From positions 1-43,909 of the forward strand of contig LFSK01000172.1 in assembly GCA_001512555.1 (NCBI GenBank): 43,909 bases of DNA. Direction: 5' to 3'. This DNA comes from Clostridiaceae bacterium DTU059. GTDB lineage: Bacteria; Bacillota; Clostridia; DSM-8532. Shown here in pieces: positions 9,490-13,393 of this stretch (the stretch's first letter is position 1; each line of letters begins with the position of its first letter). The notes below the pieces were generated by a model that ran no database searches, was not told where the DNA came from, and was given only the letters and a program-made list of their open reading frames with translations. The translations under genes were made by a program, and so were the position numbers.

Positions 9490-10002
9490 TCAGGGAAAGG
9501 CCGCCTGTATGGCATCCAGAATGCCTTTCAGCAATGGCTTCCCGCTATTATCGGTCGCCTGGTCAATGTATTGCTGATCCAGTACAACGTTGTAATCATT
9601 CTTTGGTACGCTTACCGGTACGATCTGGTACCGATCGGGCTTATGCATGCCCATTTCAGTCTCTGCCACCTGCTTAACCCTGTCAAGGTCAATATTTGTC
9701 TCTATTTCAACCTTCAGGAGTCTGTTTTCATTCCTCAGGGCGTTGTATTCCTCATTCATCCTGTTCATGGTGGCATTAAGATCCGACAGGATCGAGAAGC
9801 GGTACAGCACTACAAAACACATGGATGCCAGCGCAACGATGCAAAAAATCAATCTGGCCTTGGGAACATGGGCATAGGCTGGAGCTGCAGCCCGGGATAC
9901 CTTTACCCTGCTCCTTTTTGGCTGCTGAGCTGCCTGACGCTCAGGCCTCTGGGGCAGTTTGGGCGCTGCGCTGCCGTAAACATAACCATATCTGGTTTCC
10001 AT
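9490..10002 (-). CDS. ftsL: FtsL-like cell division protein
   Basis: A 170-aa bitopic protein identified mainly by position and architecture, since FtsL sequences diverge strongly. It has a 50-residue basic, Pro- and Ala-rich cytoplasmic tail, one membrane span at about 50-69, and a coiled-coil segment at about 70-105 (NRMNEEYNALRNENRLLKVE). The coiled coil is followed by LDRVKQVAETEMGMHKP, typical of the FtsL/septum formation initiator families. FtsL bridges FtsQ and the FtsW-PBP pair in the divisome. AGGGAGG lies upstream of the ATG. A 550-bp non-coding leader separates it from rsmH, so it may have its own expression control. Confidence 0.82.
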   Translation of the reverse strand: METRYGYVYGSAAPKLPQRPERQAAQQPKRSRVKVSRAAAPAYAHVPKARLIFCIVALASMCFVVLYRFSILSDLNATMNRMNEEYNALRNENRLLKVEIETNIDLDRVKQVAETEMGMHKPDRYQIVPVSVPKNDYNVVLDQQYIDQATDNSGKPLLKGILDAIQAAFP

Positions 10003-10155
10003 GCCTTTTAGCCTCCCTTCACGATCTCCTCTTTACCAAAGGGTAAAATACTTTTGCGACGCCGGACAGTATGCATGTTTCCCGGCAATCCGACTTACTT
10101 TTAAATACAGGATGGACGTATACTGTACAAATTGCGCTTCTCAGAAGAGAATAAC

Positions 10156-10179
10156 GTGGCGTACTTTTTGTAACGCCAC
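10156..10179 (-). other. Small hairpin in the ftsL leader
   Basis: GTGGCGT (10156-10162) and ACGCCAC (10173-10179) form a 7-bp stem with a 10-nt A/T-rich loop. The minus-strand loop contains an ACAAAAAG sequence resembling the upstream array motif. No T-tract follows on either strand. Confidence 0.45.
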
Positions 10180-10205
10180 AGCCCCTGACACATAAGAGAT
10201 GAAGT

Positions 10206-10235
10206 CCCGGGTCTGCCATCGGGGCAGACCCCGGG
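10206..10235 (-). other. GC-rich hairpin without a T-tract
   Basis: CCCGGGTCTGCC (10206-10217) pairs with GGCAGACCCCGGG (10223-10235) as a 12-bp stem with one bulged base and a short loop. Neither strand has a T-run after it, so it does not look like an intrinsic terminator. It lies in the leader of ftsL, just downstream of the ACAAAAG array in the direction of transcription. Confidence 0.6.
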
Positions 10236-10271
10236 TAAAATCAATTGGTTTTGCCTCTCATAAGCACTTCT

Positions 10272-10534
10272 CTTTTGTACGATCTGTTCTTCTGTTTTCT
10301 CTTTTCTGCCTGTCTTTAGTAACTCTTTTCCTCTTTGTCTTTTGTAACCATTAAAATGGGGTATTTATCTTTTGTTCAGGGTTCCAATCTTTTGTAACTC
10401 CGATGTTCCGGTCAGTGGTTATCTTTGGTGAATCATGGATTGGTTTGGAAGATAATTGCGCTTTTGTTTGTTGAAAATTCTTTTGTGCTTTAGATCCTTA
10501 CTCTTTTGTGTACTCAGTTTCCTTTGTCTTTCGT
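10272..10534 (-). repeat. Array of ACAAAAG motifs (CTTTTGT on the plus strand)
   Basis: The exact heptamer CTTTTGT occurs on the plus strand at 10272, 10339, 10369, 10389, 10461, 10480 and 10503, seven copies in under 240 bp. Variants include CTTTAGT near 10314, CTTTGT at 10333 and 10522, and CTTTCGT at 10528. Several copies extend to GTTACAAAAGA or TACAAAAGA in the sense of the rsmH-ftsL transcript. Spacings of 67, 30, 20, 72, 19 and 23 bp are irregular, so this is neither a tandem repeat nor a CRISPR. Its role is unknown. Confidence 0.75.
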
Positions 10535-10553
10535 ATAGGCTTATTTCAATTTA

Positions 10554-11495
10554 TTATAGCTTTTCCGCAACCCGGAGCTTGGCGCTCCTGGATCTTGGGT
10601 TCTCATCAAGTTCACTCTGGGACGCTGTTACAGGTTTTTTTGTTATGACCCTGATCTCCGGTGTCCTGCCGCAGACACACTGGGGAAAATCCCCCGGGCA
10701 AACACATCCCTGCGACCTGTCCCTGAAGGCTTGCTTGACTATTCTGTCCTCTAACGAGTGGAAGGTAATCACTACAAGCCGGCCTCCCGGATTAAGAAGA
10801 CCCACGACCTCCTTCAGGGTTCTTTCCAGCACCTCCAACTCCCTGTTGACCTCAATTCGGATGGCCTGGAATGTCCTTTTTGCAGGATGCGGTCCCTTTC
10901 TTCTCGCAGCCGCTGGTATGGCGGCTTTGATTATGTCTGCCAGCTGACCTGTTGTTGTTATCTTTTGTATTTCACGGTTTTTTACAATGAATTCCGCTAT
11001 CCGTGAGGCCCATTTCTCCTCACCGTATTCTCGGATGATCCGGGTCAAATCCTCACGGCTCAGGTTATTGACAACCCATGCGGCATCCCTTTCTTCGCTT
11101 TTGTTCATACGCATGTCGAGGGGTGCATCCTGTTGGTAGCTGAATCCCCGTTCCCCCTCATCCAGTTGGTGGGAGGAAACCCCAAGATCCATAAGTACCC
11201 CGTCGACAGCCTTCAGCTTTTGCATCCCGATTACTTCTCTTATGTTTTCAAAGTTCGTATGATAAAGGACATATCGTCCCTTGGTCTGCACTTTTTTTAG
11301 CCTTTGCCCGGCCGCCTGTATGGCGTTTTGGTCCTGATCGATTCCAATCAATAAACCCTCCGGTCCCAGGCGTTTCAATATTTCGGAGGAATGCCCCGCA
11401 CCCCCAAGGGTGGCATCCAGATAGACACCATCGGTACGGATATTCAGATAATCTATGCATTCATCCAGCATGACGGGTTTGTGTTCAAAAGTCAC
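10554..11495 (-). CDS. rsmH: 16S rRNA (cytosine-1402 N4)-methyltransferase
   Basis: RsmH (MraW) methylates N4 of C1402 in the 16S rRNA P-site using S-adenosylmethionine. The sequence begins [13 protein letters not shown], then the SAM-binding motif [14 protein letters not shown] and IGIDQD, a lid region with [17 protein letters not shown], and the C-terminal [12 protein letters not shown] signature. The track starts at ATG 11510, which has AAGG directly against it. GTG 11495 has GAGG 9 nt upstream and gives the normal family N-terminus, so I prefer 11495 (313 aa), with moderate certainty. It follows mraZ by a few bases and is the second dcw gene. Confidence 0.93.
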
Positions 11496-11521
11496 GACCG
11501 GATTCCTCATCCTTTCAGGTT

Positions 11522-11962
11522 TTACGGAAGATTGATGGGCAGGCTGTCCAGTATCTCGTTAATATCGTAGGAGTTGGTAACATCTTCATATCGCTGGGGA
11601 TCCCAGATCTCAACTTTGGTGTCGACTCCGGCGAAAAGCACTTCCTTGGTTAAACCAGCCCACTCCCTCAATTCCTGGGGAATCACGATGCGTCCCTGGC
11701 TGTCAAGGCTGCAAGTGGCTGCATTAGCGAAGTAGTGGCGCATGATGGCCCGGAAATTCTGCCTGCTGGTTTGAAGGGTTTTCACCTTTTCTTCAAACTC
11801 TTCCCAGGCATCCATGGGATAGAGGTAGAGGTTCTGATCCTCGCCGCGGGTGAGGATGAATTCCTTTCCCAGCTTATGGCGATAAGCGGCAGGCACGAAA
11901 ACGCGGTTCTTCGCGTCCAGGGTATTCGTGTATTTGCCGTTAAAACCACTCACCACTTTCAC
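11522..11962 (-). CDS. mraZ: Transcriptional regulator MraZ
   Basis: MraZ is a DNA-binding protein with two AbrB-like swapped-hairpin domains that controls its own dcw operon. [22 protein letters not shown] matches the N-terminal repeat and [19 protein letters not shown] the second, each with the family's D-x-K/Q-x-R core. The track start at 12007 cannot be right because the promoter -10 box and operator lie inside that extension. Of the downstream GTG codons, 11962 has GGAG with an 8-nt spacer; 11956 and 11953 are alternatives. With 11962 the protein is 146 aa, close to the family norm of about 143. Confidence 0.93.
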
Positions 11963-11979
11963 CCACTTTACTCCACTTA
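11946..11979 (-). promoter_or_regulatory. MraZ operator (10-bp-period AAGTGG boxes)
   Basis: On the minus strand TAAGTGGAG, AAAGTGGGTG and AAAGTGGTG follow one another with TGG at 11975, 11965 and 11955, an exact 10-bp period; a further TGG lies at 11948. MraZ is known to bind direct GTGG/TGGG-type repeats at 10-bp spacing in E. coli and mycoplasmas. The boxes begin about where transcription should start and run through the ribosome site and start codon. Binding should block the promoter or early elongation, giving autoregulation. Confidence 0.88.
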
Positions 11980-11985
11980 CATTGT

Positions 11986-12014
11986 ATTCTACTCCATCTA
12001 TCGGCACCCGTCAA
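11986..12014 (-). promoter_or_regulatory. Sigma-A promoter of the mraZ/dcw operon
   Basis: TTGACG (12014-12009), a 17-bp spacer and TAGAAT (11991-11986) on the minus strand. It lies just after the upstream operon's terminator and just before the MraZ boxes. The predicted transcription start is near 11979, leaving a leader of under 20 nt. Confidence 0.88.
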
Positions 12015-12045
12015 CCCTTTGATTAACTGTTTCCGCCCCAAATAC

Positions 12046-12075
12046 AAAAAGGGGTGTTCCGATATGAACACCCCC
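12046..12075 (-). terminator. Intrinsic terminator after rodA
   Basis: GGGGTGTTC (12051-12059) and GAACACCCC (12066-12074) form a perfect 9-bp stem with a 6-nt loop. On the minus strand it is followed by TTTTTGTATTT. It separates the rodA operon from the mraZ promoter. The AT-rich stretch 12076-12256 between it and the rodA stop shows no gene. Confidence 0.88.
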
Positions 12076-12256
12076 GAGAGGTCAGAATATACCATATATT
12101 GTATTGTAATATCTTACAATCTACTAGATATATCTGGGCAATTATTTGTAGAAAACTATACATTTTTGTTTATTGATTTTTTGTAACACAATCTTAATAT
12201 TTAGAGGCAAATTTCCACCCGTTTCCTGTATCAGCATCGGGATTGCCCCTCTGCTG

Positions 12257-13393
12257 TCAGGTCTCGAACATGGGCTTCTGCCTTCGCATGGATACACTGA
12301 CGATTATCCCAATGGCAAGGTAGTTGACCACCACCGAAGAACCGCCGCTGCTGATAAAGGGCAGGGGTATACCTGTCACCGGCAGGATGCCTATGTTCAT
12401 GCCCACGTTCTCAACAAAATGGAAAAGGAACATGGACATAAGGCCTATGACCAGAAAAGACCCGAACTTGTCCTTGGCAAAGCGCGAAATATAGAGGCAA
12501 CGCAGTAAAAGGGCAGTGAACAGTACTACAAGAATGACAGCCCCTATAAAGCCAAGCTCTTCTCCCACCACCGAAAAGATGGAGTCTGTTTCCACCTCCG
12601 GGACATTGAAGACCGCCTTGCCATTGCCAATACCTACTCCGGTGAGCTGTCCCCTCCCGATATGGCGGATAGCCATGCGCACCTGATAGCCGCTGGTATT
12701 TTCATAGGCGGCGGGGTTGATAAAGGAGAGTATGCGCAGTATCTGGTGCTCCTTCAAAACATTCACCAAAACTGTGAACCACAGCAGGGGAAGTCCCAGC
12801 AGCGTCGCTCCTCCGAAAATGAATATATACCGGTACTTGATTCCGCTTACAAAAAGCATGCACAGGAACATGAAAACATAAACTACGGCCGTTCCAAAGT
12901 CCGGCTGCAGCAGCACCAGCCCGATGGGCAACGCCGAAGTGGCAAGGAGAAGGATGTAATTTTTGATACTGCGGTTCTGCTGTATTTTCTCGAAATAGAA
13001 GGCTGCGGCGATCACCATGGCCACCTTGCCAAGTTCCGAGGGCTGAATGCTCAATGGCCCAAGCAGCAGCCAACCCTGGGTTCCCGTTTCTTCCCTTCCC
13101 GTACCCACCAACAGTACAGCCACCAGGAGAAAAACGGTGATGAAATAGGCAGGTATGCCCAGTATCTTCAGATCCTTATAATCTATGATCATGACAATGA
13201 TCATGACGGCAAGCCCCAGAATGGAGGCTATTAATTGTTTCATGAAGAGGTTGGGTACATTCAACTGATCAGGTGAAGACATCCCCTTCAACACGATTAA
13301 GCCCATCGCGTTGATGAGGATGACATTCACGATCAGAAACCAGTCTATATTCTTGACCAGCGACGGCCCTTTGTTTTTCTCTATGGCATACAT
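12257..13393 (-). CDS. rodA: SEDS glycosyltransferase, RodA-like
   Basis: A 378-aa protein with about ten membrane spans and the SEDS signatures IQPSELGKVA, ETDSIFSVVGEELGFIGA with the catalytic-type Asp, and LPFISSGGSSVV near the end. RodA polymerises glycan strands for cell elongation with a class B PBP. The NIDWFLIVNVILINAMGL start and GTQGWLLLGPLSIQPSE segment resemble RodA more than FtsW. It is the last gene of the M16-M16-lgt-rodA operon, 64 bp after lgt, and ends at a strong terminator. The ribosome site is weak: GAGG lies about 14 nt from the ATG. Confidence 0.88.
   Translation of the reverse strand: MYAIEKNKGPSLVKNIDWFLIVNVILINAMGLIVLKGMSSPDQLNVPNLFMKQLIASILGLAVMIIVMIIDYKDLKILGIPAYFITVFLLVAVLLVGTGREETGTQGWLLLGPLSIQPSELGKVAMVIAAAFYFEKIQQNRSIKNYILLLATSALPIGLVLLQPDFGTAVVYVFMFLCMLFVSGIKYRYIFIFGGATLLGLPLLWFTVLVNVLKEHQILRILSFINPAAYENTSGYQVRMAIRHIGRGQLTGVGIGNGKAVFNVPEVETDSIFSVVGEELGFIGAVILVVLFTALLLRCLYISRFAKDKFGSFLVIGLMSMFLFHFVENVGMNIGILPVTGIPLPFISSGGSSVVVNYLAIGIIVSVSMRRQKPMFET

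Follow-up and report, generated by a model that had tools for sequence, protein, structure and literature searches.

Tandem copies of a short, sense-oriented motif, ACAAAAGA, are a real, conserved and apparently undescribed cis element of the dcw operon of Clostridia. The motif, its conservation and orientation, its linkage to dcw and its three alternative positions in the operon can all be read from the sequences themselves. With moderate confidence, the array is interpreted as a multi-site, single-stranded leader RNA that would be bound by a trans-acting RNA-binding protein and would tune the expression of the downstream division and wall genes. The known regulator of the dcw operon is MraZ, which acts on DNA. 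With a conserved RNA array in front of ftsL, rsmH or mraZ, much of Clostridia would have a second level of control that acts after initiation and governs both division and wall synthesis.

The window is the whole analysed stretch of 43,909 nucleotides from Clostridiaceae bacterium DTU059 (contig LFSK01000172.1), a close relative of Thermoclostridium caenicola (RsmH 86% identical). The array is also present in the gap of T. caenicola DSM 19027 (L039), a non-pathogenic thermophile. The minus strand of the window encodes the dcw cluster mraZ, rsmH, ftsL, a PASTA penicillin-binding protein, murE, murF, mraY, ftsW and a gene of the EPSP-synthase family that is read as murA. Between rsmH and ftsL lies a gap of ~551–554 nt, much longer than any other intergenic gap in the window. 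It harbors seven exact ACAAAAG copies and five one-base variants, which add up to 12 sites (Table 1), with variants counted only if they are enriched in related arrays. All 12 lie on the strand that encodes rsmH and ftsL, and a single near-match in the gap is antisense. The seven CTTTTGT starts listed in an earlier note on this DNA (10272, 10339, 10369, 10389, 10461, 10480 and 10503) are all exact and all on the minus strand. When the 554-nt gap is shuffled with its dinucleotides kept, 0.3 copies result. The densest 300-nt segment elsewhere in the window has 2–3 such sites. The genome-wide background was drawn from pattern searches and 400-kb samples; a triple ACAAAAG array occurs in this genome only in the rsmH-ftsL gap, and the heptamer is not dense elsewhere, so that the first result named as refuting in the earlier note was not obtained.

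Table 1. Features of the dcw region of the window, with positions counted from the first letter of the window.
Feature	Position	Strand	Remark
dcw promoter, TTGACG-17-TAGAAT	11986..12014	-	sole promoter-like site on the strand within 9900-12300
MraZ-type operator, three AAGTGG repeats, 10-bp spacing	11953..11978	-	separate from the array
rsmH (mraW)	10554..11510	-	
Array, 12 sites (7 exact ACAAAAG, 5 variants), consensus Y-A-C-N-A-A-D-G-H, rsmH-ftsL intercistronic leader	10271..10534	-	
Two weak sites, overlapping, ACGAAAGA and ACAAAGGA	10520..10534	-	
Exact site ACAAAAGA	10502..10509	-	
Exact site ACAAAAGA	10479..10486	-	
Exact heptamer, ACAAAAGC	10460..10467	-	
Variant site ACCAAAGA	10422..10429	-	core kept in 5/5 genus members
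Exact site ACAAAAGA	10388..10395	-	
Exact site ACAAAAGA	10368..10375	-	
Exact site ACAAAAGA	10338..10345	-	
Variant site ACTAAAGA	10313..10320	-	ACAAAAGA in 3/5 genus members
Exact site ACAAAAGA	10271..10278	-	
Hairpin 1 after the array	10206..10235	-	conserved in genus; nowhere else in genome; z -3.7
Hairpin 2, GTGGCGT..ACGCCAC, then U-rich GTTRTTCTCTT	10156..10179	-	conserved in genus
ftsL	9490..10002	-	

Across 63 arrays, the octamer ACAAAAGA occurs 368 times, compared to 8 expected occurrences, a 46-fold excess over a first-order Markov expectation. The recognition profile is Y-A-C-N-A-A-(A/G/T)-G-H (YACNAADGH). C2, A5 and G7 are invariant, and changes at these positions are not tolerated. 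Changes at positions 1, 4 and 8 are partly tolerated, position 6 accepts G or T but not C, position 3 accepts any base, and position −1 is mainly T or C. The fully free internal base argues against RNA pairing and for recognition by a protein. This bears on the idea that a small RNA with the sequence UCUUUUGU targets the sites, which would fit their being single-stranded, repeated and sense-only. Pairing would not leave an internal position open to all four bases, an A-to-G wobble at position 5 is not tolerated, and no candidate small RNA was identified, which makes this explanation highly improbable. The array regions are A-rich (36–52% A) and in some families lie just before ribosome-binding sites, as would be expected if the array were an unstructured spacer or a translation enhancer whose composition gives rise to the motif incidentally. 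That origin is very unlikely in view of the octamer excess, the intolerance to single-base changes at A5 and G7, and the conservation of the cores relative to their spacers.

This conservation is visible at close range. The gap and the array are kept in all five genus members in the gap alignment, so the lack of conservation in close relatives that the earlier note had named as contrary evidence was not found. Genus-wide, the motif cores are 87–91% identical, whereas the spacers are 48–64% identical; in the nearest species the values are 100% and 91%, respectively. A functionless tandem repeat that is decaying or expanding is scarcely credible: a few members do carry recent duplications, but the cores are conserved amid diverged spacers, the linkage to dcw recurs in many families, and the arrays cluster on the RsmH tree far below shuffles. 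The "slowly decaying repeat" of the earlier note is rejected on the first of these grounds. The recent tandem expansions consist of 39-bp units in L128 (G013) and 14-bp units in L129 (G007). With the 39-bp unit, ACAAAAGA and ACGAAAGA were duplicated together, which suggests that both are functional sites.

The distance between neighboring sites is irregular in the window (19–42 nt, variants counted), as the earlier note had stated, but its description as unphased is only partly right, as the 62 related arrays show a clear mode at 22–25 nt. Distances of 15 and 18 nt are common in f58. The overall distribution is broad (15–27 nt), and helical periodicity is weak. A protein-coding repeat was rejected, because a stop-free sense frame is present in only 11 of 62 arrays, mostly short ones, and the spacing does not follow multiples of three (mod 3 = 93:81:65).

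The array turned out to be larger in scale than the earlier note had described, being class-wide and shifting its position within the operon. A sample of 391 Clostridia genomes was searched for strict ACAAAAG triples. Together with the counts that allow variants, the results place an array next to rsmH in no fewer than 14 family-level groups (f1, f2, f15, f26, f29, f39, f40, f48, f53, f54, f58, f68, f76 and f80). The arrays contain 4 to ~28 copies, with the maximum at one locus (L171). Outside f1 and f2, the array is located at the dcw cluster or linked to rsmH in 29 of the 40 strict-triple genomes in which the position of rsmH was determined. Once the enriched variants are allowed, arrays appear in further members of f15, f26, f39, f40, f48, f53 and f76. 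In every f1 member with the gap read, and likewise in f2, a sister family within the order, the rsmH-ftsL gap measures 295–554 nt and contains 2–11 exact copies, with no exact copy in antisense. The sites are in sense orientation in every dcw array, while antisense and reversed-motif controls mostly give 0–2 sites. Usually, a genome contains one such locus. Most other named Clostridia (Thermoanaerobacter, Caloramator, Cellulosilyticum, Peptoniphilus harei, Sedimentibacter, Lachnospiraceae and others) have 0–2 sites. Outside Clostridia, the array is absent from ~190 genomes of the phylum: a search of 200 phylum genomes (193 from other classes) matched the genome of the window and one stretch from outside the class, which reads like a coding tandem repeat. 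In f26, four species of one genus (L289-L292) have two sites left in a gap shortened to ~190 nt, and their sister species have 7 to ~28 sites; array loss is apparently ongoing in this genus.

The array occurs at three positions within the operon: in the rsmH-ftsL gap (A), in the mraZ-rsmH gap (B), and in the 5′ leader upstream of mraZ, where it follows the promoter and the MraZ operator (C). The position states cluster strongly, far below shuffles, on a tree built from the RsmH sequences of 163 loci, which is a quick gene tree and not a species tree. A large A clade comprises f1, f2, f26, f54, f76 and f80 together with two MAGs, and a B clade comprises f39, f48 and f58. The C group is formed by f15 and f53 and adjoins f68, which itself has the array in A; f40 has a reduced array in A. 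The tree requires ~5 changes of presence and 3 of position. The same motif at different places of one operon suggests a shared trans-acting reader rather than the simple inheritance of a sequence block.

The location of the promoter strongly supports a position of the array inside the transcribed leader. In the window (11953-12075, minus strand), a canonical dcw promoter lies upstream of mraZ behind an intrinsic terminator, and three MraZ-type AAGTGG repeats directly follow its −10 box. A scan of 9900-12300 found no promoter-like site on the coding strand within the rsmH-ftsL gap. The order in f15 and f53 is promoter, MraZ-type AAGTGG repeats, array and mraZ start codon, which places the array within the 5′ UTR. 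AAGTGG-like repeats upstream of mraZ are common to many array-bearing families. An identity of the array with the MraZ operator was rejected, as ACAAAAGA recurs at 22–25 nt instead of AAGTGG/TGGG-type repeats at ~10 bp, and the genuine AAGTGG repeats stand separately. The array could otherwise be a double-stranded DNA operator, with same-orientation sites for a DNA-binding regulator or a roadblock inside the operon. The strong octamer specificity, a modal spacing of about two helical turns and the precedent of MraZ, a DNA regulator already known at this operon, would suit such an element. It is nevertheless unlikely, since the sites are always in sense despite three different array positions, the array is always downstream of the promoter, the spacing is broad with weak helical periodicity, and the canonical MraZ repeats are separate and normal. 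Sense-only orientation, the position after the promoter and weak helical phasing favor a reading at the RNA level. Of the interpretations offered in the earlier note, the one that sees the leader RNA as a target with several sites has the best support, and a cluster of transcription-factor sites is disfavored.

The two hairpins reported to follow the array are present in the window. The pair is locus-specific in the window genus, and its U-rich tail is imperfect, with no clean U-tract. Most families with the array in position A or B have a stable hairpin between the array and the next gene. A hairpin context CCGGG...CCCGG-TTTGTTGTCT is shared by f54 and part of f1, and f58 carries the hairpin (A)CAACTGGTA...TACCAGTTG, with both sides of one stem pair changed. 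In many cases only 30–50 nt separate the hairpin from the next gene, which leaves little room for a promoter and probably makes the downstream genes dependent on read-through. The hairpin is missing in the C families, in f39 and in f68, and is therefore considered accessory. Attenuation as a universal mechanism was rejected for this absence in several families and for the lack of a clean U-tract in the window genus.

In the favored RNA-level mechanism, the gap would be an untranslated, A-rich and largely unstructured segment of the dcw mRNA that presents tandem single-stranded sites, although no special lack of structure was seen when the arrays were compared with shuffled sequences (mean z −0.67). 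The reader would be an RNA-binding protein that is conserved in Clostridia, acts in trans and binds to several sites simultaneously, either on the nascent transcript or on the mature mRNA. Its occupancy would set the share of transcripts that reaches ftsL, spoVD/pbp, murE, murF, mraY, ftsW and murA, possibly through the hairpin region and/or through control of stability or translation. Binding and its effect on downstream expression are predicted from the sequence pattern. In Bacillus subtilis, division reportedly depends critically on the level of FtsL (White et al. 2022, cited in PMC13317604). Exact motif, copy number and species make the proposal directly testable, and the array could be used as bait for its binder.

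The array resembles several known systems. The leaders bound by CsrA/RsmA and the CsrB sponges likewise offer a single small RNA-binding protein several short sites on RNA. CsrA recognizes GGA, usually in hairpin loops. GGA is absent from the main array motif, which lies in unstructured RNA; a CsrA-type leader was rejected, as only the rare variant ACAAAGGA has the GGA core. The MraZ operator of dcw has about three to four repeat copies. Operator and array are both direct repeats at the same operon, but they differ in motif, spacing and position, with AAGTGG every 10 bp at the promoter. The trp leader bound by TRAP also places many short single-stranded motif copies in an untranslated leader followed by a hairpin, with one protein complex binding many sites. 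TRAP recognizes (G/U)AG triplets, of which the trp leader has eleven (PMC4027176), whereas the array consists of YACNAADGH octamers with a modal distance of ~22–25 nt, and no antiterminator was seen. A TRAP-type leader was rejected on this basis. An Rfam 15 scan of 15 loci (E up to 1) gave only sub-threshold chance matches, and literature searches that covered the octamer as well as dcw leaders and KhpB motifs gave no description of the array.

Hfq (PF17209) was excluded as a general partner: of 28 array-bearing genomes, all listed as ≥90% complete, 10 encode it and 18 lack it. In pneumococcus, the RNA-binding proteins KhpA/KhpB (EloR/Jag) have been linked to cell elongation and division (PMC6403258). 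The KH_KhpA-B domain (PF13083) is encoded in 28 of 28 array-bearing genomes, with one partner not seen in G032, G148 and G318. The pair is a possible binder, for which presence is necessary but neither sufficient nor discriminating; no published binding motif was found in the literature that could be matched to the array.

Some arrays lie away from dcw. In two f58 species (G335 and G269), dcw has no array and no gap between mraZ and rsmH, and G335 also has a convergent gene right after ftsL. Their many-copy arrays (L204, 1988-2420; L210, 1914-2107) are located 3′ of an unrelated gene pair, an HTH gene and a gene of unknown function, and run into an intrinsic terminator with no downstream gene on that strand. 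These two loci are counter-evidence to the favored leader-RNA mechanism. The G335 arrangement, the up to ~28 sites at L171 and the hairpin after the array in many families would suit a role as sponge or decoy, or as a piece of a distinct non-coding RNA, by which an RNA-binding protein is titrated in proportion to dcw transcription. Such a role is quite unlikely, because the array abuts the mraZ start without a hairpin in f15 and f53, and ACAAAAG is not enriched in other leaders that could serve as targets (two relatives, 400 kb each). This lack of enrichment, which also weighs against the favored mechanism, suggests that the presumed reader would have essentially one multi-site target. Likewise, no recurrent locus outside dcw was apparent in a pair-pattern search for a genome-wide regulon in 33 genomes. 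The genome G186 (f65), whose dcw has no array, carries ACAAAAG four times in the region that separates a T-box-like leader (GGTGGTACCGCG) from ileS (L209, 1976-2188, minus strand). The arrays of G335, G269 and G186 could be relocations, independent non-coding RNAs or, in G186, chance. The non-dcw pair-pattern matches look sporadic or belong to a dispersed repeat in G017, ACAAAAGAACCGTCCCYYTGTG...ACACAAAAGA, which occurs in more than 20 copies on many contigs in a context unrelated to the array.
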